From Fibrobacter sp. UWB5 (GTDB lineage Bacteria; Fibrobacterota; Fibrobacteria; Fibrobacterales; Fibrobacteraceae): a stretch of 64,000 nucleotides of DNA. The stretch spans positions 124,001 through 188,000 of the forward strand of contig NZ_MWQH01000005.1 in NCBI RefSeq assembly GCF_002210295.1. The letters run 5' to 3'. Numbering within the stretch: position 1 is the first letter of the stretch; each line of letters begins with the position of its first letter. A program made the translations under genes and the position numbers. Under the pieces are notes generated by a model. That model had not been told where the DNA came from. It saw nothing but the letters and a program-made list of their open reading frames with translations, and did not search any database. Shown here one piece after another: positions 274 through 47,743 of the stretch.

Positions 274-283
274 TATGCATAGA
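254..283. promoter_or_regulatory. Inverted repeat over the metK -10 box (candidate operator)
   Basis: TCTATGCAT at 254-262 is mirrored perfectly by ATGCATAGA at 275-283. The 12-bp spacer contains a centred TGTACA palindrome. The dyad axis falls between 268 and 269, inside the predicted -10 hexamer, where a bound repressor would block RNA polymerase. The regulator is unknown. A transcript hairpin is less likely because the dyad mostly precedes the predicted start site. Confidence 0.45.
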
Positions 284-299
284 AAAACTCAAACCCGTT

Positions 300-352
300 T
301 TTTCAGCGCTTGGGAATGCTCAAAAACGCGACATTCTTTTTGGTGCTGAAAA
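300..352 (+). promoter_or_regulatory. Candidate structured 5' leader of metK
   Basis: TTTTCAGC (300-307) pairs perfectly with GCTGAAAA (345-352). Inside it GAATG (314-318) pairs with CATTC (332-336). The outer stem ends five bases before the AAGGAG ribosome-binding site (357-362), so folding could affect translation of a SAM synthetase. It does not match a SAM riboswitch consensus that I recognise. Confidence 0.3.
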
Positions 353-367
353 CATCAAGGAGCCTAC

Positions 368-1558: not shown

Positions 1559-1611
1559 GCTGCGGAGGTTTAGCAACCGCTAAACAGCGCAGGCCTAGCG
1601 CAAGATATGAA

Positions 1612-1642
1612 AACGGCCCCGAGATTTCGGGGCTGTTTCTTT
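1612..1642 (+). terminator. Rho-independent terminator of metK
   Basis: A GC-rich hairpin (ACGGCCCCG / CGGGGCTGT, one wobble pair) is followed by TTTCTTTT, about 55 bases after the metK stop. Confidence 0.8.
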
Positions 1643-1664
1643 TACATACTGAAGCCGTTCGCGT

Positions 1665-3401
1665 CTATTTTACTGCGGTAAAATAGCTCCTGCTTACGCC
1701 CGGAGCGGTAACGCGTACCAGATACACGCCCGCGGGAAGGCCTGCGGTCAGTTCACGCATGTCGCGGAGCATCGCCTGCGTGACATTTTCCGTTTTACGA
1801 ACAAACTTTCCGTCGGTCGCATAGACACTCACGCTGTATGCCCCCTGCTGGAGCGACAAGCCCGAAAGCATCGGGATGGCCGTCTTGGTCGTATCGCCCG
1901 AGCTTGTATCTCGAACAGTCGTATCCTTCTTCGAGGTGTCCGGCGAAACCACCTGCGCCTTCACAAGCGTTACATCGAACTGGTCGATATTCGGGCCGTC
2001 ATTGCCGCCGACGGTCGCGAACTTAACCGCATTTTCGCCCGCGGCAAGACTCACGAGAACTTCCTGCGTATTCCAGGCGCTCCACGCCCCCGTCGCCTTG
2101 AACGACGCGGTCGCGGTGTCGAGTCCCGCACTTACGGCAAGACTGCGCGCCTCGCCCGAGCCGTTAGCGAAATCAATTTCGAGCTTGTACTGGCCCGCAG
2201 CATCCACTTTCACGGGCACGACCACGCTTCCGCCCTTGTCAAAGTTCACGTATCCGTCGCCGTGAAAACCCGAGTTGCTGCTTTCGGAAACACCGCCCGT
2301 AATGGAGCCCTTTTCGGCCTGGTACTGCTTATCGGGAGTCGGAGGCGGCGGCTCCACATAGTTCGCATCACATTCCGTAGGGCTCTTGAGTGTCGCCCCC
2401 GCGTTCGCCTTCACGGCGGCTTCCACCTCGCTTGCCGGCAGCATGAAGCCTGTGTAATCGTAGGGCGGCGTAAACGACGTTCCCGTGCCCTTCGTGTTGC
2501 CCGAGCAGTTCGTAAAGATGTTGTCGATGACCTCGTTCACGCCCGTACCGTTCGCGTTGCCAGTATAAATCGGGTTAGCCTCGTTGATGAACACATTCCG
2601 TTCGGTACGCACACGGCACATGTGGCCTGCCGAAACACCCAGCACGTCGGTACCGCCCGTGACGCTTGCATCGCCCGTCAAAAGGTTGTTTACCACGTGC
2701 ACGTTTCCGTAGCGGCAACGCGGTTTACGCTGGTTTGCAGCCTTCCACCAGTTGAACATGTAGGTCACATTCAGCTTGCCCTCGCTTACGGGCTCGTTGT
2801 CGGAACTGCCGATAAGGTTCGAGAGGTTGTGCGTACTCTTTTTCTTGTAGCCGAATATGCACCACGTAAACGTTACATTGTCAGCGCCCTTCACCACGTC
2901 GGCGTTGCCATCTTGCCCGTCCCAGAATTCGCAGTGGTCTATCCAGATGTTCTTGGAGCCGTCATTTTCGATGGTGAGGTTGTCCCACGCCTGGTCGGCG
3001 TTGCTGCCCGGGCCCTGGATAACGATGTTGCGGACAATGATATTCGAGGCCTTGCTGATGTGGATGGGAGCCTTCAAGAGCGTTCCCGGTTTAAGGCCGA
3101 TAATCGTCTTGTTGGAGCCGGTAATATTCAGGCGGTCGCCGGTCGTGCCGCTCCAGCCGCTACCGAGGGTACCATCGATGTAGATAACTCGCGGCGAGGA
3201 ATCCTTCGCGTATTTTTGCAAATCGGCGAATGTCGTTACCGTAATGGGGGTTGCGTTACCGCCTCCGGTCACTTCGAAGGGGGTCGACGTACGGCCCGAA
3301 CGGGTCGCCCAGCCGATGGGCTTACACTGGTCCACCGCGGCGGACGCGCAAACCGCGAACCCACACAGAATAGCCAAAATTCTGGAAGACATTTCAAACA
3401 T
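1665..3401 (-). CDS. Secreted pectate lyase (PL1-type) with carbohydrate-binding module and T9SS-like C-terminal domain
   Basis: Likely cleaves pectate by beta-elimination outside the cell. ATG at 3401 has AAGGAG eight bases upstream; an upstream in-frame GTG at 3425 has no such site. Order in the 578-aa product: signal peptide ending at SAA; a right-handed beta-helix lyase domain with IWIDHCEFWDG and the basic RKPRCRYGNVHVVNN segment typical of PL1 active sites; a CBM6/35-like module (YQAEKGSITGGVSESSNSGF, GDGYVNFDKGG); a Thr/Asp/Ser/Lys-rich linker; and a final ~65 residues ending LPAGVYLVRVTAPGVSRSYF, which resembles a T9SS sorting domain. A PorU-like sortase is encoded 1 kb away. Confidence 0.9.
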   Translation of the reverse strand: MFEMSSRILAILCGFAVCASAAVDQCKPIGWATRSGRTSTPFEVTGGGNATPITVTTFADLQKYAKDSSPRVIYIDGTLGSGWSGTTGDRLNITGSNKTIIGLKPGTLLKAPIHISKASNIIVRNIVIQGPGSNADQAWDNLTIENDGSKNIWIDHCEFWDGQDGNADVVKGADNVTFTWCIFGYKKKSTHNLSNLIGSSDNEPVSEGKLNVTYMFNWWKAANQRKPRCRYGNVHVVNNLLTGDASVTGGTDVLGVSAGHMCRVRTERNVFINEANPIYTGNANGTGVNEVIDNIFTNCSGNTKGTGTSFTPPYDYTGFMLPASEVEAAVKANAGATLKSPTECDANYVEPPPPTPDKQYQAEKGSITGGVSESSNSGFHGDGYVNFDKGGSVVVPVKVDAAGQYKLEIDFANGSGEARSLAVSAGLDTATASFKATGAWSAWNTQEVLVSLAAGENAVKFATVGGNDGPNIDQFDVTLVKAQVVSPDTSKKDTTVRDTSSGDTTKTAIPMLSGLSLQQGAYSVSVYATDGKFVRKTENVTQAMLRDMRELTAGLPAGVYLVRVTAPGVSRSYFTAVK

Positions 3402-4395: not shown

Positions 4396-7300
4396 TTACC
4401 TCGAAATCAGCAGTTTTTGTTTTTTAGTCCAAGTCTTCTTGCCAAACTTGTCGTTAGCAGACACGGTGCTGCGGACCACATAGTGGTACAGACCGTTAGC
4501 AAGCAGGCGTCCGTGATTGTCGTGGCCGTTCCAGTGCGTCACGCCCGAAACCGCATTCTTGATCACGCGAACCAGTTTGCCATTCTGGTTGTAGATAAAG
4601 ATGTCGACCTTGCTGTCGCGATCTACAGCCAAATTCTTGAAGTAGAAGGTGGTGCCTTTCTTGCCCATCGGATTCGGCACGTTGAATACGTCGGCAAGGC
4701 CAGATTCCATGTCGTCCGTGATTTCAAGATTCAAGGACTTGACGGCGATGTTGTCCAAAACGTCCTTCGCAAACACCTTGAATTCGTACTTGCCGGCAGG
4801 ATACTGTTCTGCGCTAAAGTTCATGCGCACCTTGGCACGCTTCGAAGTCTGTTCCAAATAGGGCCACGGGTGGAACGGTTCCTGCACGCCCACGACTTCG
4901 AACGAAATACCTTCGTCAGCCTGTTCCCTAAAGTCAAGCGCCGTAGAATCTTCTACAATCACCTGCAGGCAAGCAGGGGCCTGCAATTTGACCGTTTCGC
5001 CATCGGCAAAGTCGGTCGCTACACCGCCGCCGTAGCAAGACTGAATCTGGATAGAAGGCGGGAGCGTGTCATTCAGGGAATCGGCGTAGTCCGAAATACC
5101 GCTAATTACCAAGTTCCTGAGCCAAGAACGGCCCACGGCGCTTTCGTTCGGGGAATAAGCCCAGGCGCTGAATTCAGCCGTCGTATCGCCAATCGAAATC
5201 TTGCGCGGTGTCACGAAGTCGGTCGCAAAGCGGCCTCCCTTCACCGGGACCTTTTCGGAATAAACCAATCCACCGTCGTAGAACACGTTAACGGAATCGT
5301 CGTTCACTTCGAGCGACATTCTCTTGTTCGTGCGACCTTCGCGCAGAATCAAGTCCACGTAACCGTTGTCTAGGCCTTCCACGGAACCCGAAAGTTTCAC
5401 ATGGTCAAGCGCCTTGACAGAATCCAACGGAGTGTCCAAAGAAATCTTGAATTCGCTACTCGGCATGCGAATCACCGGTTCACCCAGAAGCACATAGCGT
5501 TCGTTGTTGAAACGCTGGCGTTCATACTTCATGCTGACAGCACGCTTGGTTTGCAAGAAGGCACTACCAATAGTTTCGCCGGTTTCACGCAAGGAATTCA
5601 GCAAGAGGTTTGTTCCGAAGTTGGAATTGTATTCGGCAAAGGTTTCACGCGTCGCACCAATGGAGACGATAGAACCGGCATCTGCCTTCAGCAAGAATTC
5701 TTCGGAAAGGGAGCGGGCGTTGCCTTCGTCAAAACGGCCCACCGTGCAAGAGAACGAGCCCAGAATCGTATAGCGGCCCTTGTTCGTCAGCTTTACCAAG
5801 TAGCTCGGCTTGAGCAGGCCTTCGCTTGCCCAGTCGGTCTTGGAGCCGTGTCCAAAGTACGTGGTAAACAGGGCGCCCTGATTCAAGATATTCAGGAAGT
5901 CTTCGGCGGCATCTTTCTTTTGGCCAGCCGCATCTTCAGCATAATCGAGCAAGTAAATCTTCTTGAAGTTCCAACGTTCCTTCTTGTTCACGGCCATGCT
6001 ATCGATAGCGCGCACCAGGTTTTCCTGGTACAAGGTATGCTTGGTCACGTCATCCATACCGCTGTTACGGGCATCGTCTGCCGTATGCAGCAAAGTCGAG
6101 CGCCAGTCGGAATAGTCCATGACGCCTTTCTTTTCGTAGTCCTTGGCCTTTTCGATATAGCTTGCAAATTCTGCCACCGTCGCCACCGGGAGTCGACCGA
6201 CGGCGACATCCAAATCGTACGTGCCATAGGGAGCCACTTCGCCAGAGTCGAGAATGCCGAAGAAGTCTTCGATGACGCCATCTTCCTTTTCGAACGGAGG
6301 AAGCACCGGGACACCGTATTTCTTGTTGATGTCGCGGTAGTCGAAGTGGCCTGCGCCAGCAAGCAACACGTAGCGGAAATTCGGGCACACGGAATAAACG
6401 TAGGCGATGTAGTTGCGGATTGCAACCGGCGACATGCGGCCACCCGTATAGCGGTTGTAAATGTCTTCGGCCACCACCACCGAGGTCGCAAACGTTCCCA
6501 CAGAAGAGCCGTCGTTACGGAATTCGGCGAGCTTTTTCGCCTGGTCCACGAATTCGGCCGGCGTGATAATCAGGTATTCAAGCTTGGAATTGGGTCTCGA
6601 AAGATCCTTGAGCACACCATCGCCATAGTTGGCAAGGCCCTCGACCTTCAAGCCCGAGCGGAACACGTTTTCCTTAACGGCAATGTAGCGCACGTCTTCG
6701 CCAAGGGTAACGCTGTCCTTGGCGACGCCACCGGCAGCCGTCAAGAATCCGACCGGACGCATGTTCGAGAACTTAAGCACCTTGGTGTTAGACGGAACAG
6801 GCACGTTGATAACGCCCGAAACCGCACCGCCTGGCAAGAGCCATTCGGCAGAATCGACAGCCGGCGTCCACTGGTAAGCAACAGAATAGCCGTCAAAGCG
6901 GTCAAACTGTCTGGGCGACGGCAACATTTCAAGTACATACTGGTTACCGTCTTCAACAAGACCCGGATTATCAATACGGAAGTTACCGCCCGGCAAAAGT
7001 TCGGTGTCGGTATATTCCACACGAACACCGTTGATTTCCATCGCGAAGTAAATGGAATCCATGCGCTGCTTATAACCGGCAGACGAAAGGGTCAAGTTTG
7101 CACGCTGGTCGTGGTCCACCACTGCAGCAGTCGCCCACACCGAGCGATGCGGGAAATACGAAGCCGACACATACTGCTTACCACCAGGAACAAGCCCGGG
7201 CAACTGCTTGGTCGTCTTCATTTCAAGTTCAGAAGCCGGAACCGTCGTAGTCTCGAGACGGCTATGCCACAGCCAGTACCATTCCTTACCGGTTGCCTTT

Positions 7301-8499
7301 TCCCAGTCCAGTTCCTTACCAAAGTAGGTATCGCGCAAATCCATTTCTTTTTCGGCGCGCACGTAACGCAACCAAGCAATGTCCTTACCGTTACCTGCAG
7401 GGGCCGCCACCGTCTGGTTAAAGCGCATGCCCTTGCCGGTCTGCTTGTAGCCCAGCAAGAACTTCTGGTAGAACGAATACGGGGAGTAAGAATGGAAGTA
7501 ATCCATCTTGCCGTTCACAAAGAACTGATCTTCGCGGTCGCAACGTTTCCAGAATGCGCTACCGTAGCCAATGAACACAATAGAGTCGCCGCTATTGAAC
7601 AGGTTATCGGGAGCGCTGCTGGCTGAGCCGTATTCCGATGCGGGCGTATGGTCGCGAATTTCGATGGGAATTTCAAAAATCTGGTTCGGAATGCGACCGC
7701 TTGCGCCAGGAGCCATGTCGGCCAGCGTATCGGGCGATGCACCGTAAACGCGAATCCATTCTACCGGAATGCCGTCCAAATCCTTGGGGTTGGGTAGGGC
7801 ATTTCGAATCGCGGTATAGCTCACCGCATACAGGCCGTCTTCGCTATTGGTCGCCACATTCTGGTCGCCCACGCTAAAGCGGGCAAGGAACGTCGGCAAT
7901 TCACCGTCTGCCGCCTCGGAACGCAAGGCCTTGATAGCCTTCGCCTTCGAAACGCCAAAGCGTGAAGCCGCCGCCGGGTTCTGCACTCTGGAAAGGGCTC
8001 GCTTGCCCGGATTGACTCCGTTAGTAGAACCGTTAAACTGAACCTTCAAGCGGAAATTCTTGCGCAGCGAAACCGACGAGCCATTCTTAACGTAAAGCGG
8101 CACGCGAATGTTGGTCATCCAAAGACCGTCGCGAAGCACCGGTTCCGAAACATCAATCGAATATATCCAAGAAGCATCCGTACGAATATCGCGGTGTTCG
8201 GCACACAAGGGGGCTCCCAGCGGAACCGTCTTGGTGTCGCTTACAGAAACAGTCGGTTTCTTGTTCGTGGGCAAAGCCACCCAATAATGCCTAAAGGGCA
8301 TATCGTGCTTTTCCAGATAGGTCGCATTTTCGGGTTTGAATTTAACCCCAGGCAAACCGGTAGAATCACAAGGATGAATACTAGATTCAAAGACAGCATC
8401 ATCCAGAACGTAACGCGTCCTGGAATCTTCGACCACGCGGGCAAACGAGCAGATTGCCCCCAAGGCCACAAAAAGGGTAATAAGTACTTTGGGCTTCAC
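4396..8499 (-). CDS. porU: PorU-like type IX secretion sortase (peptidase family C25)
   Basis: In T9SS, PorU is the surface cysteine protease that removes C-terminal sorting domains and attaches cargo. The 1367-aa product has a signal peptide (VLITLFVALGAICSFA), a long beta-rich N-terminal region, and a C25 (gingipain-fold) domain. The catalytic His is in YFGHGSKTDW (H884) and the Cys in GSFSCTVGRFDEG (C918). VAVGRLPVATVAEF, before the His, is also typical of the family. The C-terminus has a FlgD-Ig-like domain (NVPNPMGKKGTTFYF ... NGHDNHGRLLANGLYHYVV). No porV lies next to it. Orthology to PorU rather than another C25 protease is inferred from length and architecture. Confidence 0.85.
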   Translation of the reverse strand: MKPKVLITLFVALGAICSFARVVEDSRTRYVLDDAVFESSIHPCDSTGLPGVKFKPENATYLEKHDMPFRHYWVALPTNKKPTVSVSDTKTVPLGAPLCAEHRDIRTDASWIYSIDVSEPVLRDGLWMTNIRVPLYVKNGSSVSLRKNFRLKVQFNGSTNGVNPGKRALSRVQNPAAASRFGVSKAKAIKALRSEAADGELPTFLARFSVGDQNVATNSEDGLYAVSYTAIRNALPNPKDLDGIPVEWIRVYGASPDTLADMAPGASGRIPNQIFEIPIEIRDHTPASEYGSASSAPDNLFNSGDSIVFIGYGSAFWKRCDREDQFFVNGKMDYFHSYSPYSFYQKFLLGYKQTGKGMRFNQTVAAPAGNGKDIAWLRYVRAEKEMDLRDTYFGKELDWEKATGKEWYWLWHSRLETTTVPASELEMKTTKQLPGLVPGGKQYVSASYFPHRSVWATAAVVDHDQRANLTLSSAGYKQRMDSIYFAMEINGVRVEYTDTELLPGGNFRIDNPGLVEDGNQYVLEMLPSPRQFDRFDGYSVAYQWTPAVDSAEWLLPGGAVSGVINVPVPSNTKVLKFSNMRPVGFLTAAGGVAKDSVTLGEDVRYIAVKENVFRSGLKVEGLANYGDGVLKDLSRPNSKLEYLIITPAEFVDQAKKLAEFRNDGSSVGTFATSVVVAEDIYNRYTGGRMSPVAIRNYIAYVYSVCPNFRYVLLAGAGHFDYRDINKKYGVPVLPPFEKEDGVIEDFFGILDSGEVAPYGTYDLDVAVGRLPVATVAEFASYIEKAKDYEKKGVMDYSDWRSTLLHTADDARNSGMDDVTKHTLYQENLVRAIDSMAVNKKERWNFKKIYLLDYAEDAAGQKKDAAEDFLNILNQGALFTTYFGHGSKTDWASEGLLKPSYLVKLTNKGRYTILGSFSCTVGRFDEGNARSLSEEFLLKADAGSIVSIGATRETFAEYNSNFGTNLLLNSLRETGETIGSAFLQTKRAVSMKYERQRFNNERYVLLGEPVIRMPSSEFKISLDTPLDSVKALDHVKLSGSVEGLDNGYVDLILREGRTNKRMSLEVNDDSVNVFYDGGLVYSEKVPVKGGRFATDFVTPRKISIGDTTAEFSAWAYSPNESAVGRSWLRNLVISGISDYADSLNDTLPPSIQIQSCYGGGVATDFADGETVKLQAPACLQVIVEDSTALDFREQADEGISFEVVGVQEPFHPWPYLEQTSKRAKVRMNFSAEQYPAGKYEFKVFAKDVLDNIAVKSLNLEITDDMESGLADVFNVPNPMGKKGTTFYFKNLAVDRDSKVDIFIYNQNGKLVRVIKNAVSGVTHWNGHDNHGRLLANGLYHYVVRSTVSANDKFGKKTWTKKQKLLISR

Positions 8500-8538
8500 A
8501 ATCCTAAAATAGCAAATAACGAAAGCCCCGATTATGGA

Positions 8539-9414
8539 TTACTTGCGAATTTCTAATTCCGAATAGCCATTTCCATTCGTTCGGAATTCAATCGATTCTC
8601 CGGCAGGCGTTGTCGCCTTGAAAAGCCTAAAGAACGAGGGCGCCACGCCGCGTACAAGGATAGCTTCAAGCTCGGCGCGCTTGATCATGAATTTGGCGTT
8701 CCAGGCCGGCATATACCAGTGCCACGGCTGCCAATTGAACACACCCCTGACCGACTGCACAAAGGCCCTGAGCATCAACGAATATTCGTACTTGAAGTAG
8801 TCTTCGTAATCGGTCAGAATCGAATTCTTTTCGGCAGGATCCTTGGTCGCATAATCGGCCACCATGAACAACGGATCTTCACCCTTCTTTTCGTAAGAAA
8901 AGAGCATGCCCGACGGCAAAAGTTTCACCTTCAGGTTATCCTTGTCGCGGTGCACATATTCCTTGTCCGAAACCTGCCTGTAGTCGCGGAAAACCACCTC
9001 GGGGTCAAGCACCGGATTAATAGAAAGCGGTACCGGCTTTGCATCGAGCGAAGGCAATTCATAGAACAGGATGGTTTCGCCTTTTCCCTTGGGGAGCAAC
9101 ACGGCAACCAGAGGCTTCGTGCGTTCGGTAATCACCCACACCATTTCGGGCTTGTTCGTTCCCTTGAGCATGGGGTCCAGAATTCCCATAAGCGCAGGGT
9201 CTTTCACGCCATTCACGTCCCATTCCATCCAGGTTCCCGTACCGCCTACGGAATCGAGCGTCGCAAAAAGGCGTTCGCCGCTAAAAGCGGTCTTCGATTC
9301 TACAGCGCCTATCACCTTGGCGGAACCCGCCGTGTAAGGCTTACCCTTGGGTGCGGCCCAAAGCACCGAACTCAAACAAACTAACGCAACAAGAGAAATC
9401 TTCGAAAACTTCAT
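8539..9414 (-). CDS. Exported protein of unknown function
   Basis: 291 aa counted from the ATG at 9414, which gives a clean signal peptide (KISLVALVCLSSVLWAAP). A longer reading to 9459 would add a non-signal extension overlapping the upstream gene. No strong Shine-Dalgarno is visible. The mature part is mixed alpha/beta with many Asp/Lys residues and no motif that I recognise. It follows a lipoprotein gene (24 bases from that stop to this start) and precedes porU by 39 bases, so all may be one envelope transcription unit. Confidence 0.75.
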   Translation of the reverse strand: MKFSKISLVALVCLSSVLWAAPKGKPYTAGSAKVIGAVESKTAFSGERLFATLDSVGGTGTWMEWDVNGVKDPALMGILDPMLKGTNKPEMVWVITERTKPLVAVLLPKGKGETILFYELPSLDAKPVPLSINPVLDPEVVFRDYRQVSDKEYVHRDKDNLKVKLLPSGMLFSYEKKGEDPLFMVADYATKDPAEKNSILTDYEDYFKYEYSLMLRAFVQSVRGVFNWQPWHWYMPAWNAKFMIKRAELEAILVRGVAPSFFRLFKATTPAGESIEFRTNGNGYSELEIRK

Positions 9415-9437
9415 TTTAGGCACAAGAATTTTATCCA

Positions 9438-10190
9438 CTAGAAGCCAATGGGTTCGCAAAGGGAATCATCAAGTCTCGAATACGTCATGTGGTATTCGCG
9501 GTCGAGCCAGTAGAGAGCCAATTTCTTGTTGCTCCAGCTCTTCTTGACGGCAGTGGCCTCAATGCCCTTCGTAATCAGGGGCACGGTTTCGACCAGGTCC
9601 AGTTTCCAGGACTTGTCATCCCATTCAAAGATCATGATCGGCACTTCGGGGCTCTGTTCCAAGCCAATACTTCCGCGGTCGTTCTTGATTTTCATGGGGC
9701 CCAGTTTCAGCTTGGTAAAGTTATGAATGATTCCCGCCTTGGACATGTAGAGCCAAAGCATGCGGTCTTCGGGCACCTGCCACAGGTGTTCGCGTTCGTA
9801 AAGGCGGTAAAGCAGAATCGAATAGATTTCGTAGAACTGGCAGGTATCGAGTTCGGCGGGGCCATAGGTCATGGCATGGCGTTCCAAAGTATCGAGCCAG
9901 TATTCCGAAGAATCCGTCAGCATGGCGTAAAGGTCGTCGGCCGGCGTATCTTCGCGAATGGCGACCAAGAAATTCTTGAACATGGATTCGAGCATGGCCT
10001 GCTTGTCGTATTCGCGGTGTCCCACCTTTTCGTTCTTGATTTCAGCCGATTCGCCAAGAGTGGCATCCACCAAGGATTCGTTGCGCGGGTCGTTAGGATC
10101 TTTGGCATTCGAAGAGCCCGCACAAGCCGAAAAGAATACGCTCGCCCCAATTGCAAGGGCCATAACAATTGTATTTTTAAGAGTATGCAT
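9438..10190 (-). CDS. Lipoprotein of unknown function
   Basis: 250 aa. A hydrophobic signal ends in the lipobox FFSACAGSS, so the mature protein should start at a lipidated Cys. The mature region is acidic and rich in aromatics (SEYWLDTLERHAMTYG, EDRMLWLYMSKAG, EWDDKSWKLDLVETV). I do not recognise the family. Its ATG (10188-10190) is half of the palindrome ATGCAT whose other half is a possible start for the divergent release-factor-like gene. Confidence 0.8.
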   Translation of the reverse strand: MHTLKNTIVMALAIGASVFFSACAGSSNAKDPNDPRNESLVDATLGESAEIKNEKVGHREYDKQAMLESMFKNFLVAIREDTPADDLYAMLTDSSEYWLDTLERHAMTYGPAELDTCQFYEIYSILLYRLYEREHLWQVPEDRMLWLYMSKAGIIHNFTKLKLGPMKIKNDRGSIGLEQSPEVPIMIFEWDDKSWKLDLVETVPLITKGIEATAVKKSWSNKKLALYWLDREYHMTYSRLDDSLCEPIGF

Positions 10191-27527: not shown

Positions 27528-27544
27528 AAAACTTTCTATTACAG

Positions 27545-27577
27545 AAAATCCCTGGACTTGAATCCAGGGATTTTTTT
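27545..27577. terminator. Bidirectional terminator between brkB-like and the peptide cassette
   Basis: Perfect 12-bp stem AAAATCCCTGGA/TCCAGGGATTTT with a 6-base loop and seven T on the + strand. On the minus strand it is followed by TTTTCTGT and lies 22 bases beyond the stop of the 51-aa peptide gene, so it can close that transcript too. Confidence 0.85.
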
Positions 27578-27598: not shown

Positions 27599-27754
27599 CT
27601 AGTTGAGTTCAACCGGTTCACCATCTGTCGATGATGATTCTTCAGCGCAATCAACACCTTCGCAACTTCCGCTAAAAAGGACGTTTGCGCGGTAGCCATA
27701 ATCAAGCACCGTCATTTCCGGCTGCACATAGTTTTTCTTCTGTTCGTTTTTCAT
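27599..27754 (-). CDS. 51-aa peptide with EQKK-Y-PEM signature (second of a pair)
   Basis: ATG at 27754 has a strong GAGGAG four bases upstream, which argues for real translation. The peptide starts MKNEQKKNYVQPEMTVLDYG and then contains VLFSGSCEGVDC with two cysteines and an acidic Ser-rich end. There is no signal peptide and no membrane segment. It shares EQKK-x-Y-x-x-PEM-x-[VI] with the 40-aa peptide just upstream. Function unknown: a precursor or signalling peptide, or a small accessory of the neighbouring surface protein, are inferences. Confidence 0.65.
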   Translation of the reverse strand: MKNEQKKNYVQPEMTVLDYGYRANVLFSGSCEGVDCAEESSSTDGEPVELN

Positions 27755-27767
27755 AATCTCCTCGTTG

Positions 27768-27890
27768 CTATTCAATTACAACTTCATAAGAATCCTGAAG
27801 CGATGGCTGCAGCAAATTGCAAGGCTCCAAAGCAACAATTTTCATTTCCGGTGCACGGTATTCTTTTTTCTGTTCGAATTTTTCTGTCAT
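27768..27890 (-). CDS. 40-aa peptide with EQKK-Y-PEM signature (first of a pair)
   Basis: Its ATG overlaps the TAA stop of the 1226-aa surface protein gene as TAATG, a classic translational-coupling arrangement. The peptide starts MTEKFEQKKEYRAPEMKIV and continues with a single Cys (LEPCNLLQPSLQD) and an acidic end. It has no signal sequence. Alignment with the next peptide is gap-free over EQKK-[EN]-Y-x-x-PEM-x-[IV]. I do not recognise an established family name. Confidence 0.65.
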   Translation of the reverse strand: MTEKFEQKKEYRAPEMKIVALEPCNLLQPSLQDSYEVVIE

Positions 27891-30800
27891 TACTTAGCCC
27901 TCTTCAGATACACACCCTTTGCCTTGGGCTTGCCATTCACGCCACGGCCCTTGAGGTCGAACACACGGCCTTCGCGAACGTTCTTGAACTCACCCGTACG
28001 GGTATTGATGCGGCCAATCACCGTCGTATGTTCCGCATCGTCACTTTCGATCACGACATCCAATTCTTCGGGCATGTCAGCCGGAGCAATGCTAGACATT
28101 GCAGGGCGGCCGTTCCCCGGAACATTTTCCGGAGATGTTTCCGGAGCATAAATCATGTACGCACGCATCGGGCGGATCCACGCACCGGCCGCGGCCTTCA
28201 CGAATTTACCCACATCCGTAGTAGCAGTCTTTTCGGCAGAAAATCCGTAAACATTGCCAAGGTCTTCATGGTCAGCGTCCCATTCAATACGATGGCGAGT
28301 TCCGCGGAATTCCCAATCGCCCACGCGTACAATGGAATCCTTGGTCGCTTTCAGAGTCGCCGAGCCGTCAACCTCAAACTTTTCATCTTTCATTAAGACC
28401 ATGTAAGGAGTATTCGCTGCAAGCGTCACATCAGCCTTCGTCGTATCGGCCCAGACCACCTTCATTGTCACAGCCTTCTTGGTTACGCCATTCTTCGTGA
28501 TTTCCTTAAGGCCGTTAAAGCCCAGCACCATCTTCACGCCGTACGTTCTAGACATGTGGACTTCGAACGGAAACACAATCGTCGAGTAAGCTTTTTCTCC
28601 TGTCGTAAATTTGCGCTTATACACAACCGACGTAACTGTAGTATCTTTCGGAATGTCTACCGTATCCAATTCATCGTACATGCCATCGATGACGGCTCGA
28701 GTGCCAGTATTGTAGTTACGAATCTGCACCGCACCGTATTGCGTCACATCCGCCGGATAGATGAAGAGTTCATCTTCAATGTCTTTATATTCCGTTCCAC
28801 CGATGGCTATTTTTCCACGTTCCCCCCCATATCCTTTGCCAATAGAGTATTCACTCGAGCCCTTTGTCACAGCAATATGATCCACGTTATCGCTTATCAA
28901 AATATCCCCGACGACATCTCCATAATAACCACCGCCGATGCCTGCAGCATAGCGGCCACCTTCAGCTTCAACTGTTCCGCCCCAAATTACGATACCATCA
29001 ACGGTTGCATCCCAACTACAGCCGACACCTGCACCATACTTTGCTCCTCCAGTAGCAGTGACCCAACCGTTCCAAATCCTGATCTCCCCGACCTTTCCTT
29101 CTTCACCAGCGCCAATACCGGCTCCCTGGTTACCACCTAAAGCAATAAGCCTACCGTTTTCGATTATGACAGCCCCGGAAATTATGCCTTCATAACCAGA
29201 GCCGACACCTGCACCATCTTCACCACCTGTAGCTGTGACCGTACCACCACTGATTGTGATATTTTTGACAGAACTTCTCTCACCACTGCCGACACCTGCA
29301 CCACCATTACCTCCTGTAGCAGAGACCGTACCGCCACTGATTGTGAGTTCCTCGACAGCGCCATCGTAACCTCCGCCGACACCTGAACCACCTGCTCCCC
29401 CTGTAGCAGTGACCGTGCCGCCACTGATTGTAATGTTTTGAATGGGTCCCTTTTTACCACCGCCGACACCAGCGCCAAGATAATCACCTGTAGCATCAAC
29501 AGTTCCGCCACTGATTGTGACACCAAAAACTTTTCCTTCACAACCTGCACCCACACCTGCGGAATGCGAACCAGCAATAGCAGTGACCATGCCGCCACTA
29601 ATTGAAATATTAGTAGTTTCACCATAATAACCACTGCCAATACCGGCACCCATGTCACCACCTGTAGCAGTGACCGTACCGTCAGTGATGATGATGTCAT
29701 ACGCATACGACGATATGCCACTTTCGCTATAACCACTACCAATACCAGCGCCACGTTCACCACCTGTAGCAATGACCGTGCCGCCACTGATCGTGATCTT
29801 ATTACAACGTCCTTGATAGCCACTGCCGATACCGGCAGCAGCATAGTCAGCAGTAGCATTGACGGTGCCGCCACTAATCGTAACATTCCCGTAAACATAA
29901 CCTTCGCGACCACTACCGATGCCAGCACCCCATTCACCAGTTGCATTGACCGTGCCGCCACTGATCGTGATGTTTTGCACAATTGACTTCTGGGCACCAC
30001 CAATGCCAGCACCATAGTTACCACCAATAGCCGTGATGGTGCCGCCACTGATCGTAATATCTCCCACGTCTGTGTAACGACCGCTATTAGTACCTTGGCC
30101 TATTCCGGCTGAGGTCCTAGATGAAGCAGTAATCGTACCTCCACTGATTGTGATATTCCCGACATATGCATAATAACCGCCGCCAATACCGGCCCCAGAG
30201 CCACCCTTAGCATTAATTATTCCGTCAAGAATCGTAATGTTTCCGCAATCCATTTTTTCCGCATCGGGGCTAAAGCCACCACCGATACCGGCTCCAGAGC
30301 CATTGCTACTAACGTCAAGGAACCCGGAACCCGAAATAGTCAACGTCTTATTTTTCGGCACGTAAATTCCAGGATACCACTCATGAAATCCCTTCACCGT
30401 GTTCTTCGAATTATCGGCAAGAACTATTTCACAATCGCCCTCGCAGGTAATACCTGCCCACTTATATTTGGAATCGTTCACCCCGTTGATTGTCACGCCA
30501 GCAAGCGTCACCTTGGCTCCATCTTCAATCGATATCTTGTGATTGCCACCAAGTACACCTACCAACACGTCTCCATTCTTAGCGACATAGTCCTCAGTTA
30601 AATAAGAAAAGTTAATTGCATCGCCCTTGAACCAACGAGCATACAACGTTACCGAAGCACCCGCTTCAGTATAAGTCACATAGCCTTTGTCCGCATAAGA
30701 TTCACCGCTATCATCGACCTTGGTATTCCAACCCACAAAAGAATACCCTTCGCGAGTAAAGCGGTTGGCATCAAGAGCTTGTTCAAAATTGGTAAGAGCC

Positions 30801-31570
30801 ATCTGGGGCGCCATATCGCCTTCACCGCCATTGGCATCGAAAATCACGGTATATGGTGCAACAGGGTAATTAAACGGACTCGCTGCGATACCAGGAGTTT
30901 CAAAAAATTGTGTAGTTTGTTCAATCGTATAGTCAATTTGAACGGAGCCGTTCATAGAACCTTTATCGCCACTGCCAATACTGTATGGTGCGTCTTGGCC
31001 CTTGATTGCAGTCACCTTGGTATTGGTTCCACTAATCTTGATATATCCAACATTCCCCTTATAGCCACCACCAATACCTGCAGCTCCATAACCTCCCGTA
31101 GCAGTGATAGTTCCTCCATTAATCACGATATTTCCGCAACTTTTTTCGTAAGAATAATCGGCACCACCAATACCAGCACCATAGCCATTACTACTAGCAT
31201 CAAGAGAACCTGTTCCCGAAATGGTCAGTGTATGGCCCTCCGGCACATAAACACCAGGATAATCGCGATAGAAGCCCCTGACCTTATTTACGGAATTGTC
31301 TGCAAGAACAATATTGCAGTTTCCTGCGCAAGTGATACCCGCCCACATGTACATGGTATAACTTTCACCATTAATAGTCGCATCTTTGAGCGTTACCGTA
31401 GCGTTATCGGCAATTGAAATCTTGATTTTTTTGACAAGTTCGCCGGTCAGCACATCTTTATCTTGCGCAACATAGTTGTCGGTAAGCGAAGACAAATCAA
31501 CAGTGTTTCCTGCAAATGCCGAAGCGGCAAACAGCAGGGAGAATATCGAAAGGAATATTTTGTGTTTCAT
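27890..31570 (-). CDS. Giant repeat surface protein (GAGIG beta-solenoid, InlB-type repeat, sorting domain)
   Basis: 1226 aa. Signal peptide (KIFLSIFSLLFAASAFAG). An N-terminal module (SLTDNYVAQDKDVLTGEL ... WAGITCAGNCNIVLADNS ... TLTISGTGSLDASSNG) occurs twice, separated by an InlB/Flg_new-type repeat (YTVIFDANGGEGDMAPQ ... EGYSFVGWNT ... VTLYARW). About 18 units of ~25-35 residues, ITISGGTVTATGG-x-x-GAGIGSG, then build a probable beta-helix. A beta-rich C-terminal region ends in a T9SS-like sorting segment (RVFDLKGRGVNGKPKAKGVY). A role in adhesion or glycan binding is an inference. It is coupled to two tiny peptides at its 3' end. Confidence 0.85.
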   Translation of the reverse strand: MKHKIFLSIFSLLFAASAFAGNTVDLSSLTDNYVAQDKDVLTGELVKKIKISIADNATVTLKDATINGESYTMYMWAGITCAGNCNIVLADNSVNKVRGFYRDYPGVYVPEGHTLTISGTGSLDASSNGYGAGIGGADYSYEKSCGNIVINGGTITATGGYGAAGIGGGYKGNVGYIKISGTNTKVTAIKGQDAPYSIGSGDKGSMNGSVQIDYTIEQTTQFFETPGIAASPFNYPVAPYTVIFDANGGEGDMAPQMALTNFEQALDANRFTREGYSFVGWNTKVDDSGESYADKGYVTYTEAGASVTLYARWFKGDAINFSYLTEDYVAKNGDVLVGVLGGNHKISIEDGAKVTLAGVTINGVNDSKYKWAGITCEGDCEIVLADNSKNTVKGFHEWYPGIYVPKNKTLTISGSGFLDVSSNGSGAGIGGGFSPDAEKMDCGNITILDGIINAKGGSGAGIGGGYYAYVGNITISGGTITASSRTSAGIGQGTNSGRYTDVGDITISGGTITAIGGNYGAGIGGAQKSIVQNITISGGTVNATGEWGAGIGSGREGYVYGNVTISGGTVNATADYAAAGIGSGYQGRCNKITISGGTVIATGGERGAGIGSGYSESGISSYAYDIIITDGTVTATGGDMGAGIGSGYYGETTNISISGGMVTAIAGSHSAGVGAGCEGKVFGVTISGGTVDATGDYLGAGVGGGKKGPIQNITISGGTVTATGGAGGSGVGGGYDGAVEELTISGGTVSATGGNGGAGVGSGERSSVKNITISGGTVTATGGEDGAGVGSGYEGIISGAVIIENGRLIALGGNQGAGIGAGEEGKVGEIRIWNGWVTATGGAKYGAGVGCSWDATVDGIVIWGGTVEAEGGRYAAGIGGGYYGDVVGDILISDNVDHIAVTKGSSEYSIGKGYGGERGKIAIGGTEYKDIEDELFIYPADVTQYGAVQIRNYNTGTRAVIDGMYDELDTVDIPKDTTVTSVVYKRKFTTGEKAYSTIVFPFEVHMSRTYGVKMVLGFNGLKEITKNGVTKKAVTMKVVWADTTKADVTLAANTPYMVLMKDEKFEVDGSATLKATKDSIVRVGDWEFRGTRHRIEWDADHEDLGNVYGFSAEKTATTDVGKFVKAAAGAWIRPMRAYMIYAPETSPENVPGNGRPAMSSIAPADMPEELDVVIESDDAEHTTVIGRINTRTGEFKNVREGRVFDLKGRGVNGKPKAKGVYLKRAK

Positions 31571-32433: not shown

Positions 32434-35400
32434 ATGAGTTCTTTAAAGATTTACAGCTCAATCTGTCTTCTGGCAGCATCCTCTAGCCTTGCCGCATGGA
32501 CCGGCAAGGCCGAAAAGCCCTCGTGCAATGAAGAGGCGATAACCGCGTACGGCATTTACGCATGCGAGATTTCTACCCCGGAACAACTCGCGGGGCTTGC
32601 AGAACAGCTCGACACCCTTGCCGAAGTTCCGACAATCACGTTGACACTTGCAAGCGACCTCGTTTTTGGAGAAGACTCCATAAGCGTTTCCGAAACCGCA
32701 TGGAAACCCATCGCAAACTTCAACGGCGTATTTTACGGAAACGGCCATACGATTTCCGGCTTGAACATCACATCCGAGAGCGGCGTGCTAGGGTTGTTCA
32801 AGTCCTTTAACGGCACTGCCAGGGACTTGACCATCGCCCATTCTACGCTGAACTACAAGAGCGAATTCTCCAATCAGCACGACTATTTTTATGCAGGCTT
32901 TTTTGCAGGCTCGGCAAAAGCAGACCTCATCAACATACACAGTGTCGAAAACGCGCTTCACTTCGAAGATTCGTCAGCCACCATTTTCAGAAGGGCTCAC
33001 CTTGGAGGGCTCGTCGGAGACTTGACCGGTTCTACTGACAGCTGTTCTAATTCCAGTGAAATCGTCGCAAAGATTTACGACATCGATGCCTACATTGGCG
33101 GCATTGTCGGCGAAAGCAAAAAAAATAGCAACAGCATTAATTCCGGAAACATCTCCGTTTCCGGTAACACCGAGATGCAAGATGTCTATGTCGGAGGCAT
33201 TGCCGGAGAAGACAGCCTTGCCGCAAACAGCAAGAACAGCGGAACGATTACAGCAAAGGCAAAGCGAGTCGGCGGAATCGTCGGTTACGGCAGTGCTTCT
33301 GATTTCTGCGAAAACACGGGTTCCATCACAAACACGCACAAAATTCAAGAGTGGGATACCTCTTTTGTCGGAGGCATTACCGGTTCGGGTAAAGTCCAAT
33401 ACAGCATCAACAAAGGCTCAGTCAAGGGCGGAATTGCAGGTGGCCTTGCCGGAAAAGGCGGCGGCACGCAAAACATTAACGAAAGTTCCGTAACAGGATC
33501 TCTTTATGCCGGGGGTATCGGCGGTGATTGCGGCAGCGTCGTAGCGTCTATCAACAGGGGCTCCATCGACGGCGGCAACGTCGGAGGTCTCTGCGGACGA
33601 AACTTCACGATTGTCGGTTCATCCATCTCTTATACCGAAAACGCCAACGGCAGCGAGTCTACAGGCGGTATCATCGCCATCAACTACGGCCAAGTGATCG
33701 GCGGCTTCTATGATACAACCAAGGTGCCCGGCTTTCAGCCTATCGCCAAAGACAGCGCCGACATGATCAACTGGGAAATGCGCGGCATGTCGACCAAGGA
33801 CATGCAAACCGTTGAATTCGCAAGCAAGCTCAATGATATCGTTAAAAATGGAACGCCGTTTGTAGGCCACAGTTTTGACGGTTTCTATTTCACACCATAC
33901 CTATGGACAACAAACGGTTCTTATCCGTTCTTTGCCGATTCCGACAATTTACCTATTCAAAAAATATTGCTTGACGACAGCCTTTACGTGAAAACGGCCT
34001 ATACCGATTCTAAGGGACATCTGCAAGATATTCCGCTGGCGGTATCTAAAGAAGGCCGCTATTTCCAAGGCTGGGTAGACTCTATCGGCACACCCGTGAC
34101 CAAGACAACCGTATTTACGGATAGCCAGACTATTTTCGCCAAGTACTCCAACACCATTACCGATTCAAGCCTTGTCGTATTTAACGACAACCCCACAGAA
34201 AAAACGCCTGTTATCGGATGGAACGGGGAATTCGAGGAACCCGTATTGAAGATGCACAAGGATTCTTCGCTTTACCAGGTGATTTCTACCCCCGGTGAAT
34301 ATGCATGGTATATTATGAACACGCGCTACAGAACAAGCGGCGAGAACCCTTATATTGATCGCGCCGTTCTTGCAAATGACATTTACCTGGCTAAAGACAC
34401 TGCAAAGTATTTACCCGAAAACTACATGACAGGATATCTCCACAAAAACAATGTTTTCGATGGCGCTGGACACAGCATTTATGGATTAAACGGCAGGATG
34501 TTCCGTGATGTTGGAAAAGGGGCGGTTATCCGCAATGTCAACTTAGTAAGCCTCTTCATGAATCCATCAAGTGGATATAATACCGACAAAGCCAGCGCAT
34601 TCGCTTACGACAACGAAGGCACTATTCAAAACAGCTCTATCCGTAATGCTATTGTTGATTCCACAGCAAAAGAGATATATGGTTTTGTTGTAAACAATAA
34701 AAAAGAGGGCGTCATCGAAAATTGTGAAAACTACAGTGATTTTACAAAAGGAACCCAATACGCCGAGTCAGTCATAGGCTTTGCAGGTTACAATGCAGGA
34801 TTGATCAAGAATGTCACAAATTACGGAAATATCAGTCATCCCTATGACAGAAACACAGAATTTTTAGTATACACACATTCGGTATATCTTGCAGGAATTG
34901 TCCAATCAAACTCCGGTGTGATAGAAAATACCATCAACAAGGGGAACATTTTCAGCGAAAGCATCAGTGAAAGTACAGCCGAAGTACAGGATATGCAAAT
35001 TGCAGGCATCGCAAATAGTGGCGGAACTATCAAGAATTCCAGAAACGAAGGCAACATTACATTCAACTATACCAAAAGTGAATTGGTCGTTAGGATTGGA
35101 GGTATCTCCAGTGGAAAAGCAACTATTGATTCAAGCGTAAATCTGGGCTCCATCAAGGTAGACATCGCCGATAGCATCGCTAAAAAGAATTCACTCGTGA
35201 TTGGAGGAATCGCTCTTGAGGGCTCCGTCAAGAATTCTACAAACGAGGGCAACATTTCGGCTATAGACACAACTTCTGCCAGATGGGTCCATGTAAGATT
35301 TGCAGGAATTCTTTCTGGCGGAATTTATGGACTAGAAGGCATCGATGTTGATTCTTGTACAAACAAGGGCGATATCGAAGGATTCATTGTTGTCGCAGGT

Positions 35401-36570
35401 ATTTTGGGACAAGGAGCAGGAAACATTCAAAACGTCCGCAATTTCGGGAAAATTAAAGCCCACCGTGGTCCTACATACAGTTCAAAGGAGACTTATGTTG
35501 GAGGAATTGCCGGATTGTCTAGCCAAGACAACGGCATCAACCACGCCTTTAACGAAGGCGAAGTTACAGCGGTTGCAACCGAAAAAGACTCCACCACAAG
35601 TTATGTAGGCGGAATATGCGGATTTGCAGATCACACCGATCTGAATGTCCTTTCGAATACAGCTTCGGTTTCGGCCAGCGGAAAGAACGCCTATGCCGGC
35701 GGCATTGTCGGCTATGCGAAATACAATAATTTCATCAATGTCTATAACTGGGGCGAAATACAGTCCGATTCCGCAGCAGGCGGCATTGTCGGTCGAAAAT
35801 ACAGTTACAACAACTATTACGAAAACGTCTATAATGCGGCTCCTGTAAAGGGGGCTTATGTCGGCCCCATCGAGCCCGTAGAATATTATGAATATCGCAA
35901 GTTTAAAGATACCACCACCAGTATTTTCTACGATTCCTCCTTCGTTCGAGATACCGCAGACAAAGTCAGTATGTATTCAGCACGCGTCGCTATAACTCCC
36001 ATGAACACGGAATCCATGCAGAGCGATGAGTTCGTCAATATTCTGAACACGTCGAACAGCCAAAAGGAAAACAGCGGCGTTTGGACCCGCAACGACGGCT
36101 ACCCCATATTCAACGAAAAGCCGACCCCAGTTGTCGCAAGTTCCAGCTCGCAAGAAGAATCCAGTTCCAGCGTTCCGGCAAGTTCTAGCTCCGGCGATCA
36201 GGGTAAGTCTTCTAGCAGCAAGAAAGTCGATTCCTCCAGTTCGCAGGCAAAGTCCAGTTCTAGCGCAATTTCTAGCTCTAGTTCGAAATCAAAGGACAAG
36301 TCGTCTAGTAGCGCAAAATCTTCTAGCAGCAAGGGTAAAGACTTTGTCTTACAGCACAACACGGATTTCAATTTCTCGCTCGAAGTTTCTGGTAGAACGA
36401 TTTTGCTCTCGAACGTTCAGGAGTACGCAAGCTATGCCCTGTTCGACATGCAAGGCAAAACGGTTTCTGCAGGGGCTCTACAAAAAGGCTATATGCAGAT
36501 TGCCGTACCGAGAGCAGGAACATACCTGATTCGTGTCGGAAAGAAACTGCAAAAGGTGATTGTTGAATAA
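32434..36570 (+). CDS. Giant GLUG-type adhesin with Ser-rich linker and sorting domain
   Basis: 1378 aa; AAAAGGAG precedes the ATG. A signal peptide is followed by two long blocks of GLUG-like repeats (GGIVGESKKNSNSINSGNIS; GGIAGLSSQDNGINHAFNEG) built on GGI-x-G ... N-x-G-x-I. Between them is an InlB-type module (LYVKTAYTDSKGHLQDIPLA, EGRYFQGWVDS). Near the C-terminus a ~70-residue Ser-rich linker of SSSS blocks precedes a sorting-like domain (NVQEYASYALFDMQGKTVSA ... GTYLIRVGKKLQKVIVE). Such Ser linkers are typical of Fibrobacter exported proteins. Repeat DNA from about 34.3 to 35.5 kb is visibly AT-richer than housekeeping genes here. Its last 11 bases overlap the uvrA-like ORF. Confidence 0.85.
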   Translation: MSSLKIYSSICLLAASSSLAAWTGKAEKPSCNEEAITAYGIYACEISTPEQLAGLAEQLDTLAEVPTITLTLASDLVFGEDSISVSETAWKPIANFNGVFYGNGHTISGLNITSESGVLGLFKSFNGTARDLTIAHSTLNYKSEFSNQHDYFYAGFFAGSAKADLINIHSVENALHFEDSSATIFRRAHLGGLVGDLTGSTDSCSNSSEIVAKIYDIDAYIGGIVGESKKNSNSINSGNISVSGNTEMQDVYVGGIAGEDSLAANSKNSGTITAKAKRVGGIVGYGSASDFCENTGSITNTHKIQEWDTSFVGGITGSGKVQYSINKGSVKGGIAGGLAGKGGGTQNINESSVTGSLYAGGIGGDCGSVVASINRGSIDGGNVGGLCGRNFTIVGSSISYTENANGSESTGGIIAINYGQVIGGFYDTTKVPGFQPIAKDSADMINWEMRGMSTKDMQTVEFASKLNDIVKNGTPFVGHSFDGFYFTPYLWTTNGSYPFFADSDNLPIQKILLDDSLYVKTAYTDSKGHLQDIPLAVSKEGRYFQGWVDSIGTPVTKTTVFTDSQTIFAKYSNTITDSSLVVFNDNPTEKTPVIGWNGEFEEPVLKMHKDSSLYQVISTPGEYAWYIMNTRYRTSGENPYIDRAVLANDIYLAKDTAKYLPENYMTGYLHKNNVFDGAGHSIYGLNGRMFRDVGKGAVIRNVNLVSLFMNPSSGYNTDKASAFAYDNEGTIQNSSIRNAIVDSTAKEIYGFVVNNKKEGVIENCENYSDFTKGTQYAESVIGFAGYNAGLIKNVTNYGNISHPYDRNTEFLVYTHSVYLAGIVQSNSGVIENTINKGNIFSESISESTAEVQDMQIAGIANSGGTIKNSRNEGNITFNYTKSELVVRIGGISSGKATIDSSVNLGSIKVDIADSIAKKNSLVIGGIALEGSVKNSTNEGNISAIDTTSARWVHVRFAGILSGGIYGLEGIDVDSCTNKGDIEGFIVVAGILGQGAGNIQNVRNFGKIKAHRGPTYSSKETYVGGIAGLSSQDNGINHAFNEGEVTAVATEKDSTTSYVGGICGFADHTDLNVLSNTASVSASGKNAYAGGIVGYAKYNNFINVYNWGEIQSDSAAGGIVGRKYSYNNYYENVYNAAPVKGAYVGPIEPVEYYEYRKFKDTTTSIFYDSSFVRDTADKVSMYSARVAITPMNTESMQSDEFVNILNTSNSQKENSGVWTRNDGYPIFNEKPTPVVASSSSQEESSSSVPASSSSGDQGKSSSSKKVDSSSSQAKSSSSAISSSSSKSKDKSSSSAKSSSSKGKDFVLQHNTDFNFSLEVSGRTILLSNVQEYASYALFDMQGKTVSAGALQKGYMQIAVPRAGTYLIRVGKKLQKVIVE

Positions 36571-45698: not shown

Positions 45699-47743
45699 TT
45701 TTGACCCCCAAGTTTATCGGGAAGACCCATGGAGTAGCGACGGCTCACCCCGAATTCCTGGATCAGGAAGAGAACGTCAGTTTGTGTGATTTTAAGTACT
45801 TTACCGTTGAGAATCTTGTCGCCTTCTTTGACGGTGTACGAGATAGACGGATTCTTGGATTCAACAAGAATTGCAACCGGCACATCCGATTCCCAAATGA
45901 TACCCACCAGTTCGACCTGGTCAATATTGATACCTTCTTCGACTAAGCCGTCGACTTCGACAAACGGATCGCGACGGCCAAAGGAACTGTAAGTCACGCG
46001 GTCTTCGTAGAGGCCATCGAGCTGGCTACCGATCTGCGGAGCATTCGCCGTGAGGTTTGTACCACGTTCCTTGTCTACCTGTTTCAGGCGTTCTTCCTGC
46101 ACAGAGGAAAGTTCATCAAAGAATCCGACAGCGCGACGGTCGACGTAGCCGACCTTGTTGCCGGACTGCACCTTGCGATACAGGCCCTTCATGTCGAGGC
46201 TCACGAGACGGTCGCCAAACACAAGGCGCTGCATCACCTGAGAGTTTTCATTCGGGGCGGCGTAGAATTCCGTTTCGTCGGCGACCACGATCAGTTCGCG
46301 GACGACAGGACGCAGGTGGAACGTCTGCGAGCCCGAAATAATTTTCTTGCTGCCCTTGTCAAGATTCTTGACGAAGGTATCGAAATTCGGCTTTTCTTCT
46401 GCAGACTTCATCCAGTCGCGAATGAAGATGCCCTTGGGCTGTGCAGACCAGAACATAAAGCCATCCTTGTTGATTCCCTTTTCGGCAATCTGCAGGACAA
46501 GCACGCCGTCTTGCACAAGAACTGCAGGCTGTACAGAATTCTTCAACTGCACCTTGAGACCGTTAGCGCCCCAGGTCACAGACTTGACAATAGAACCGGC
46601 ACCGATTCTGAATACAGGCGATTTCTGCGGACCGGCAAGACCAATCGTAATGGTATTGTTCTTGTCGACGCTAGAAACATTCTGCATGACGATGTTGTCA
46701 TCGGCGACAATGCGGAACTGTTCCAGGCCGGAACCGATCAGGACCGTCATTTCCTTAAGCTTCGGGAGCAGGGCCGAAATGGCACCGCCTTCAGCAATTG
46801 CCTTGTCGATCTGCTTCTGCTGTTCGGCCATCAGCTTTTCAGCTTCGCGAGCGGCCTTTTCAGCAGCCTTCTTTTCTTCGGCGAGACGCTTCTTTTCTTC
46901 GAGAGCAGCCTTCTCCGCGGCCTTCTTTTCTTCAAGAGCACGGCGTTCCGCTTCCTTCTTTTCAGCGGCCAAGCGCTTCTTCTCTTCGAGAGCGGCCTTC
47001 TCGGCAGCTTTCTTTTCTTCGAGAGCCTGCTTGGCGGCAAGCTTCTTTTCTTCAGCTAAACGCTTTTTCTCTTCTGCAATGCGCTTCTTTTCTTCGGCAG
47101 CAGCCTTTGCCGCAGCCTTCTTGTCTTCGAGGGCCTGCTTCTCGGCGGCCTTCTTTTCTTCAAGCGCACGCTTTTCGGCAGCCTTCTTTTCTTCGGCCAA
47201 GCGTTTCTTCTCTTCGAGAGCGGCCTTCTTTGCAGCCTTCTTTTCTTCGAGGGCAGCCTTTTCTGCGGCCTTCTTGTCAAGAGCGGCCTGCTTTTCGGCG
47301 GCCTTCTTGCGGTCAGCAAAAAGCTTCGAAAGCGTCCAGGACTTACCGCCCTTGCTCTTGAGCTTGATCAAGAAGTTGGACTTGTCCAAAGCGATTTCGT
47401 TCTTGTCAGAAGTAATGGCAGCGCCCACATCCATTTCAATCTTCAAGAAGGCCATGCCCTTGTAGGCATCCTTAAAGACCTTCATGGACTTCACGAACTT
47501 GGAATTGGCATCGACATCGTAGCCGCCTTCACCAAGAGCAAATGTCGTTTCAGAGAAACCGACCGTCAACTTCTTCGAAGAAGCATCGTACTTCTGGAAG
47601 AACGTCGGCAAGTTCTTTTCGGACGTAAAGGCAAATACCACCTGGCAGCCCTTCGCGTCGCAATTAAAGCGAACATCCTTGATCTGGGCGGCACCTGCAA
47701 AAGCCGTAAAGGCGAGCAACAAAAGAAGAATCTTCATTTTCAT
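45695..47743 (-). CDS. pilP: PilP-like pilus protein fused to AMIN-like, coiled-coil and SH3-like domains
   Basis: 682 aa, against about 180 for usual PilP. Order: signal peptide (KILLLLLAFTAFAGAA); AMIN-like beta domain (IKDVRFNCDAKGCQVVFAF, to ~130); a long Lys/Ala/Glu repeat (~145-305, units EEKKAAEKAAL) predicted as a single helix or coiled coil; a second beta domain; an SH3b-like module (FYAAPNENSQVMQRLVFGDR, ~500-560); and a C-terminal PilP domain (SSFGRRDPFVEVDG ... VELVGIIWESDVPVAIL ... ILNGKVLKI). It lies between pilO and pilQ, where pilP belongs. The helix could span the periplasm. Confidence 0.85.
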   Translation of the reverse strand: MKMKILLLLLAFTAFAGAAQIKDVRFNCDAKGCQVVFAFTSEKNLPTFFQKYDASSKKLTVGFSETTFALGEGGYDVDANSKFVKSMKVFKDAYKGMAFLKIEMDVGAAITSDKNEIALDKSNFLIKLKSKGGKSWTLSKLFADRKKAAEKQAALDKKAAEKAALEEKKAAKKAALEEKKRLAEEKKAAEKRALEEKKAAEKQALEDKKAAAKAAAEEKKRIAEEKKRLAEEKKLAAKQALEEKKAAEKAALEEKKRLAAEKKEAERRALEEKKAAEKAALEEKKRLAEEKKAAEKAAREAEKLMAEQQKQIDKAIAEGGAISALLPKLKEMTVLIGSGLEQFRIVADDNIVMQNVSSVDKNNTITIGLAGPQKSPVFRIGAGSIVKSVTWGANGLKVQLKNSVQPAVLVQDGVLVLQIAEKGINKDGFMFWSAQPKGIFIRDWMKSAEEKPNFDTFVKNLDKGSKKIISGSQTFHLRPVVRELIVVADETEFYAAPNENSQVMQRLVFGDRLVSLDMKGLYRKVQSGNKVGYVDRRAVGFFDELSSVQEERLKQVDKERGTNLTANAPQIGSQLDGLYEDRVTYSSFGRRDPFVEVDGLVEEGINIDQVELVGIIWESDVPVAILVESKNPSISYTVKEGDKILNGKVLKITQTDVLFLIQEFGVSRRYSMGLPDKLGGQK

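Follow-up and report, generated by a model that had tools for sequence, protein, structure and literature searches.

A family of small peptides, each with a constant head and a variable tail, is encoded for the most part directly behind genes for surface proteins that end in a short type IX secretion system (T9SS) C-terminal signal (short CTD); the pairing occurs in two phyla, Fibrobacterota and Bacteroidota, and the peptides co-occur with a cassette of putative maturation genes. We consider it probable that an RRE-guided, RiPP-like system, acting in trans and reserved for one particular class of T9SS surface proteins, uses these peptides as its precursors, the best-supported reading being a non-lasso system with dispersed substrates, most of which are assigned to one short-CTD cargo. 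The finding joins two fields that have been studied separately, type IX secretion and the RRE-guided maturation of peptides. If true, a great many unnamed small genes in Bacteroidota and Fibrobacterota of the rumen and gut would encode peptide precursors, and a two-gene module of wide occurrence would lie behind the short CTDs recently reported from a single oral species, which show only one half of it.

A surface protein gene followed by two peptide genes

The locus lies in a 64,000-nucleotide stretch of DNA from Fibrobacter sp. UWB5 (the window) and comprises three open reading frames, all on the minus strand, whose coordinates, lengths and junctions had been given correctly in a first-pass annotation. 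The largest (27890..31570) encodes a 1226-aa secreted beta-helix protein with GAGIG repeats, which starts with a signal peptide (N-terminus MKHKIFLSIFSLLFAASAFAG) and contains 17 Beta_helix_3 stretches and one Listeria-Bacteroides repeat (Flg_new). Its last 48 aa (27893..28036) form a short T9SS-type CTD (CTD profile E=3.3e-21) with a motif B, VFDLKGR, a motif D, KGVY, and a basic end, as judged by comparison with published motifs (PMC11969387), so that a signal peptide, a YxLxGR-like motif B, a GxY motif D and a basic C-terminus, the features of short-CTD T9SS cargo, are all present in the one protein. At the position of the PT/GI cleavage consensus before the CTD the window protein reads TTVIGRINTRTGE, and many Bacteroidota members show TGI. 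AlphaFold predicts a beta hairpin plus a low-confidence tail for the C-terminus of the protein; a fold search of the PDB with its C-terminal 260 aa returned nothing meaningful, and no Pfam or NCBIfam model matched the peptide-linked short CTD.

The first peptide (27768..27890, 40 aa, head EQKKEYRAPEM, family profile E=2.6e-13) begins within the cargo stop at the claimed TAATG junction, where the TAA of the cargo gene and the ATG of the peptide gene have one base in common. The second (27599..27754, 51 aa, head EQKKNYVQPEM, family profile E=3.8e-14) has its ATG at 27754, 13 bases past the stop of the first, with the GAGGAG ribosome site just upstream, as had been described, and the reported ungapped alignment of both heads over EQKKxYxxPEMx[VI] is likewise correct. 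The motif KKxYxxPEM occurs exactly twice in the window, compared to 0.14 occurrences expected by chance with two mismatches allowed, and neither peptide has a match in Pfam or NCBIfam. The terminator proposed to close the unit does correspond to a strong hairpin (27541..27575, assigned to neither strand, -20.1 kcal/mol, z = -4.1) that is probably common to the convergent genes, but its longest T-run lies on the plus-strand side; because this run follows on the plus strand, the hairpin may chiefly terminate the convergent plus-strand gene while serving both directions.

The peptide family: spread, anatomy and selection

When the window genome and 40 relatives were searched with an exact DNA pattern, matches were found only in genomes of the same genus, and a reversed control pattern gave zero matches. 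A family profile built from 28 peptides detects 1–13 copies per genome in 56 of the 61 genomes of the genus, which, along with the same anatomy in two phyla, establishes conservation well past this strain. Within the genus the head reads KKxYxxP-E-M-x-V, of which KKxYxxP is the motif at the core of the whole family. With Tyr taken as 0, KK occupies positions -3 and -2, P position 3 and M position 5, with hydrophobic residues at 7, 8 and 10; a fixed [LMI][LIM]xxS follows downstream of the head at about 15–20 past Tyr, and the tails beyond it are hypervariable and mostly acidic. The 82 peptides extracted from Bacteroidota have the same frame, with T, I or M most often at position 5. The first-pass annotation had also named an absence of coding constraint as grounds for giving up the peptides; 42 related, non-independent pairs gave a dN/dS of about 0.14 for the head and 0.24 for the tail, which indicates purifying selection. 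Small size alone would favor dismissing these as chance or non-coding reading frames, and given conservation across two phyla, purifying selection and frequencies far above chance expectation, the probability of this is practically nil; at the level of sequence the idea is refuted.

Two details of the window locus generalize only in part. Cys-containing tails are found in just over half of the tails sampled from the genus but in few Bacteroidota tails, and the stop-start overlap, genuine at this locus, is unusual in the family, with only three of 56 copies abutting or overlapping the upstream stop; most peptide reading frames among the 56 behind CTD genes begin 3–38 nt past it. A tblastn search of plasmids and phages with the consensus peptide gave no match, nor did sequence searches of the PDB with the peptide profiles. 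At one locus, L090, a short-CTD gene and its two peptides are tandemly duplicated (39-3124 and 5778-9667); the duplicates have an identical first peptide, and their second peptides differ mostly in the tail.

Pairing with short CTDs in two phyla

It had been suggested that the peptide genes be checked for a position 3′ of T9SS-cargo genes, and the outcome is strikingly positive: of 68 copies within the genus, 56 come immediately 3′ of a reading frame with a DLxGRxxNxKPxxKGxY-like end. The cargo genes upstream encode diverse large proteins with only the CTD region in common. The other 12 copies have no CTD gene upstream; such orphans, exemplified by L019, L025 and L026 and by L056 and L070, form two groups of alike peptides and suggest that a peptide can act without a neighboring cargo.

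Profile searches of the window genome gave seven strong CTD matches (E below 1e-19), all seven with peptides directly behind them, and the next match has E=0.01. Because the CTDs that went into the profile were those with a peptide behind them, the profile is biased towards peptide-linked CTDs, but despite this bias it should have revealed close CTD relatives lacking peptides. The standard T9SS tail, TIGR04183, has 84 matches at E up to 0.01 in the same genome, none of them at known peptide loci, and a gene for the SprA translocon is present (SprA_N E=2.8e-22, 2290-aa frame). A natural contrast is found within the window itself, where the tail of a 1378-aa neighbor (32434-36570, plus strand) is of the long, standard T9SS type A (TIGR04183 E=0.00033, narrowly below the cut-off) and no peptide lies behind it. 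Two more long T9SS-tail matches, at 1692-1853 and 4468-4677 on the minus strand, are also without peptides.

The same two-gene module was sought across GTDB species genomes with a joint DNA pattern, a KK[IMV]xxK-stop end plus MKKxYxxP within about 60 nt, which matched at least 119 stretches; chance alone, roughly estimated, would give less than one. The 80 loci among the matches listed are all from Bacteroidota, mainly rumen and gut Prevotella and their relatives. In most of the 82 extracted pairs a long frame carries a CTD of the type YxLxGRxVxxPxKGxYIxNGKK, and the family peptide has a short reading frame, although shortness was not demanded by the pattern. In four Bacteroidota genomes, 28 of 36 peptide matches lie 0–320 nt 3′ of a CTD match, where about 0.002 would be expected per peptide, whereas only 28 of the 150 CTD matches listed for the same genomes have a detected peptide; the Bacteroidota pairing is thus strong in one direction only.

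Short CTDs have been described in Prevotella intermedia, which has 48 short-CTD genes and where they are cleaved, glycosylated T9SS signals (PMC11969387). That cargo has motifs B, D and E and the short C-terminal signal spacing in common with the proteins considered here, but in a word search of the paper operons, downstream genes and small proteins are unmentioned, whereas here a peptide gene accompanies the short CTD and the module also occurs outside Bacteroidota. In the literature searched, mostly without subscription papers, the pairing of peptide and short CTD is undescribed, and a prior description is possible.

The close association invites a simpler explanation, which we regard as the chief rival and as unlikely: that the peptide is a dedicated accessory or chaperone that, unprocessed, binds the short CTD of its own cargo and keeps the cargo fit for secretion (for example by supplying the strands that a three-stranded short CTD is missing relative to a seven-stranded long one), while the cassette described below merely regulates or recycles it. 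The peptides do accompany short CTDs only, short CTDs are predicted to be three-stranded (PMC11969387), and the CTD model here is a hairpin with an unsure tail. The CTDs, however, are alike while the peptide tails are the part that varies most, orphan peptides occur, and a constant YxxP head alongside a lasso-type RRE favors leader recognition.

A candidate enzyme cassette in trans

The precursor-peptide reading had been doubted by the first-pass annotation on the grounds that no modification enzyme is adjacent. None is, but the doubt fails because a conserved cassette with candidate enzymes, a peptidase and a transporter lies elsewhere in the same genome (G000:C3:246-251 kb). Its five genes come after a short-CTD gene with two peptides and encode NTP_transf_5 (E=2.4e-44), an HPrK-like P-loop protein, an S26/S24-like peptidase, PqqD (E=1.2e-12) and an ABC exporter. 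Many genomes of the genus contain this set. Most genomes have a single PqqD gene and between one and five NTP_transf_5 genes, the latter often adjoining peptide genes. Among 29 good genomes the only two that are peptide-free (G001 and G013) are the same two that have neither NTP_transf_5 nor the small PqqD, a coincidence of 1 in 406 were the genomes independent; they are not, and kinship within the genus weakens such co-occurrence statistics. The co-occurrence is broken in some partial genomes, in both directions, with a PqqD and no peptide match in G047 and G055 and peptides and no PqqD match in G017 and G057. PqqD is also present in 31 of 32 Bacteroidota genomes with pairs, mostly beside the kinase and peptidase, and in most Prevotella neither NTP_transf_5 nor an ABC exporter adjoins this kinase-peptidase-PqqD trio.

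Kinase and peptidase score below Pfam cut-offs, and sequence searches of the PDB with both gave nothing convincing. The peptidase motifs GxSMxPF, HR and GDGN are unchanged in every one of 46 sequences. This is what an S26-type protein should show and makes the peptidase a candidate Ser/His enzyme of that type; by eye, it has no N-terminal membrane anchor. Directly before the Prevotella trio there is a conserved small secreted protein of about 150–170 aa with a YMFG motif (L282:9569-10018, minus strand, and similarly in L271, L276, L281, L288 and L290), for which Pfam gave no convincing match.

The exporter of the Fibrobacter-type cassette, together with the variable tails and the many paralogues per genome, could also indicate secreted competition or signal peptides of a bacteriocin-like kind, with the neighboring surface protein as receptor, carrier or immunity factor. 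This seems distinctly improbable, given that the neighbors are diverse large proteins alike only in the CTD region, that a small immunity-like gene was not seen, and that most Prevotella trios have no adjoining exporter.

Putative leader recognition and the lasso question

The best PDB sequence match of the cassette PqqD is TfuB1, and the best fold matches of its predicted structure are TbiB1 and TfuB1, both of which were solved with lasso leaders bound. YxxP and a conserved Leu are the residues gripped by lasso RREs (PMC6784204), and the YxxPEM of the peptide head has this register. A YxxP leader and a PqqD-type RRE, the two traits looked for in a lasso system, are thus both found, and the resemblance extends to lasso peptides with tailoring: in paeninodin and pseudomycoidin the C-terminus is tailored by kinase and nucleotidyltransferase genes (PMC9266682), and these systems have in common with the present one the YxxPx[L/M] register, the PqqD-type RRE, an HPrK-like kinase, a nucleotidyltransferase and an ABC exporter. 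It might be supposed from this that the peptides are genuine lasso peptides and that a hidden lasso synthetase matures them. The lasso B2 leader peptidase, PF13471, however, was found in none of the 61 genomes, which makes lasso peptides very unlikely, and on this ground that reading was rejected; in addition, none of the five cassette genes is an Asn-synthetase-like cyclase, and the tails, judged by eye, have no common Gly-x7-Asp/Glu core. Relative to paeninodin and pseudomycoidin, then, the present system lacks the B2 peptidase and a cassette cyclase, has an S26-like peptidase instead, and has precursors that are scattered and tied to surface-protein genes.

Two other categories come close. 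The SynChlorMet and HprK-related kinase cassettes (TIGR04249, TIGR04352, TIGR04248) also have an HPrK-related kinase beside a PqqD-like protein, but kinase and PqqD here score 14–17 bits where the curated cut-offs are 100–200, which leaves them outside those families. The RRE-containing clusters of antiSMASH (e.g., PMC13289728) are a generic label; the generic RRE rule would probably pick up the cassette PqqD, and PMC13289728 mentions neither Fibrobacter nor PqqD.

Proposed route

The RiPP-like precursor reading combines a peptide family with a constant leader and variable tail, as RiPP precursors have, with a predicted RRE fold and predicted peptidase catalytic motifs in place of the recognition protein and peptidase of a RiPP system. 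The first-pass interpretation of the two window peptides is partly supported as a whole, and its precursor-peptide reading is supported: the head is constant while the tail has diverged, the family is conserved throughout the genus and under purifying selection, and there is a leader-recognition protein to match.

From the gene set, the following route may be envisioned. One transcript would yield the surface protein and its peptides; the head, KKxYxxP-E-M, would be bound by the lasso-type PqqD recognition protein, usually encoded by one gene per genome; and the peptide would be modified by the HPrK-like kinase and the NTP_transf_5 enzyme of the cassette. The soluble S26-like Ser/His peptidase would then cleave near the fixed LLxxS, and the ABC exporter, where present, would release the variable acidic tail. 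Speculatively, the product may work at the surface with its own short-CTD cargo as a partner, tag or capping group. In its full form we offer the proposal tentatively, as a possibility rather than an expectation: a new RRE-dependent peptide class would serve type IX secretion, with a shared kinase, transferase and peptidase maturing the co-encoded precursor of each cargo and the modified peptide joining or assembling with that cargo at the surface.

Elsewhere in the window, at 46823-47308, there is a tandem array of 21–120 bp repeats that probably codes for a charged, Ala-rich stretch.
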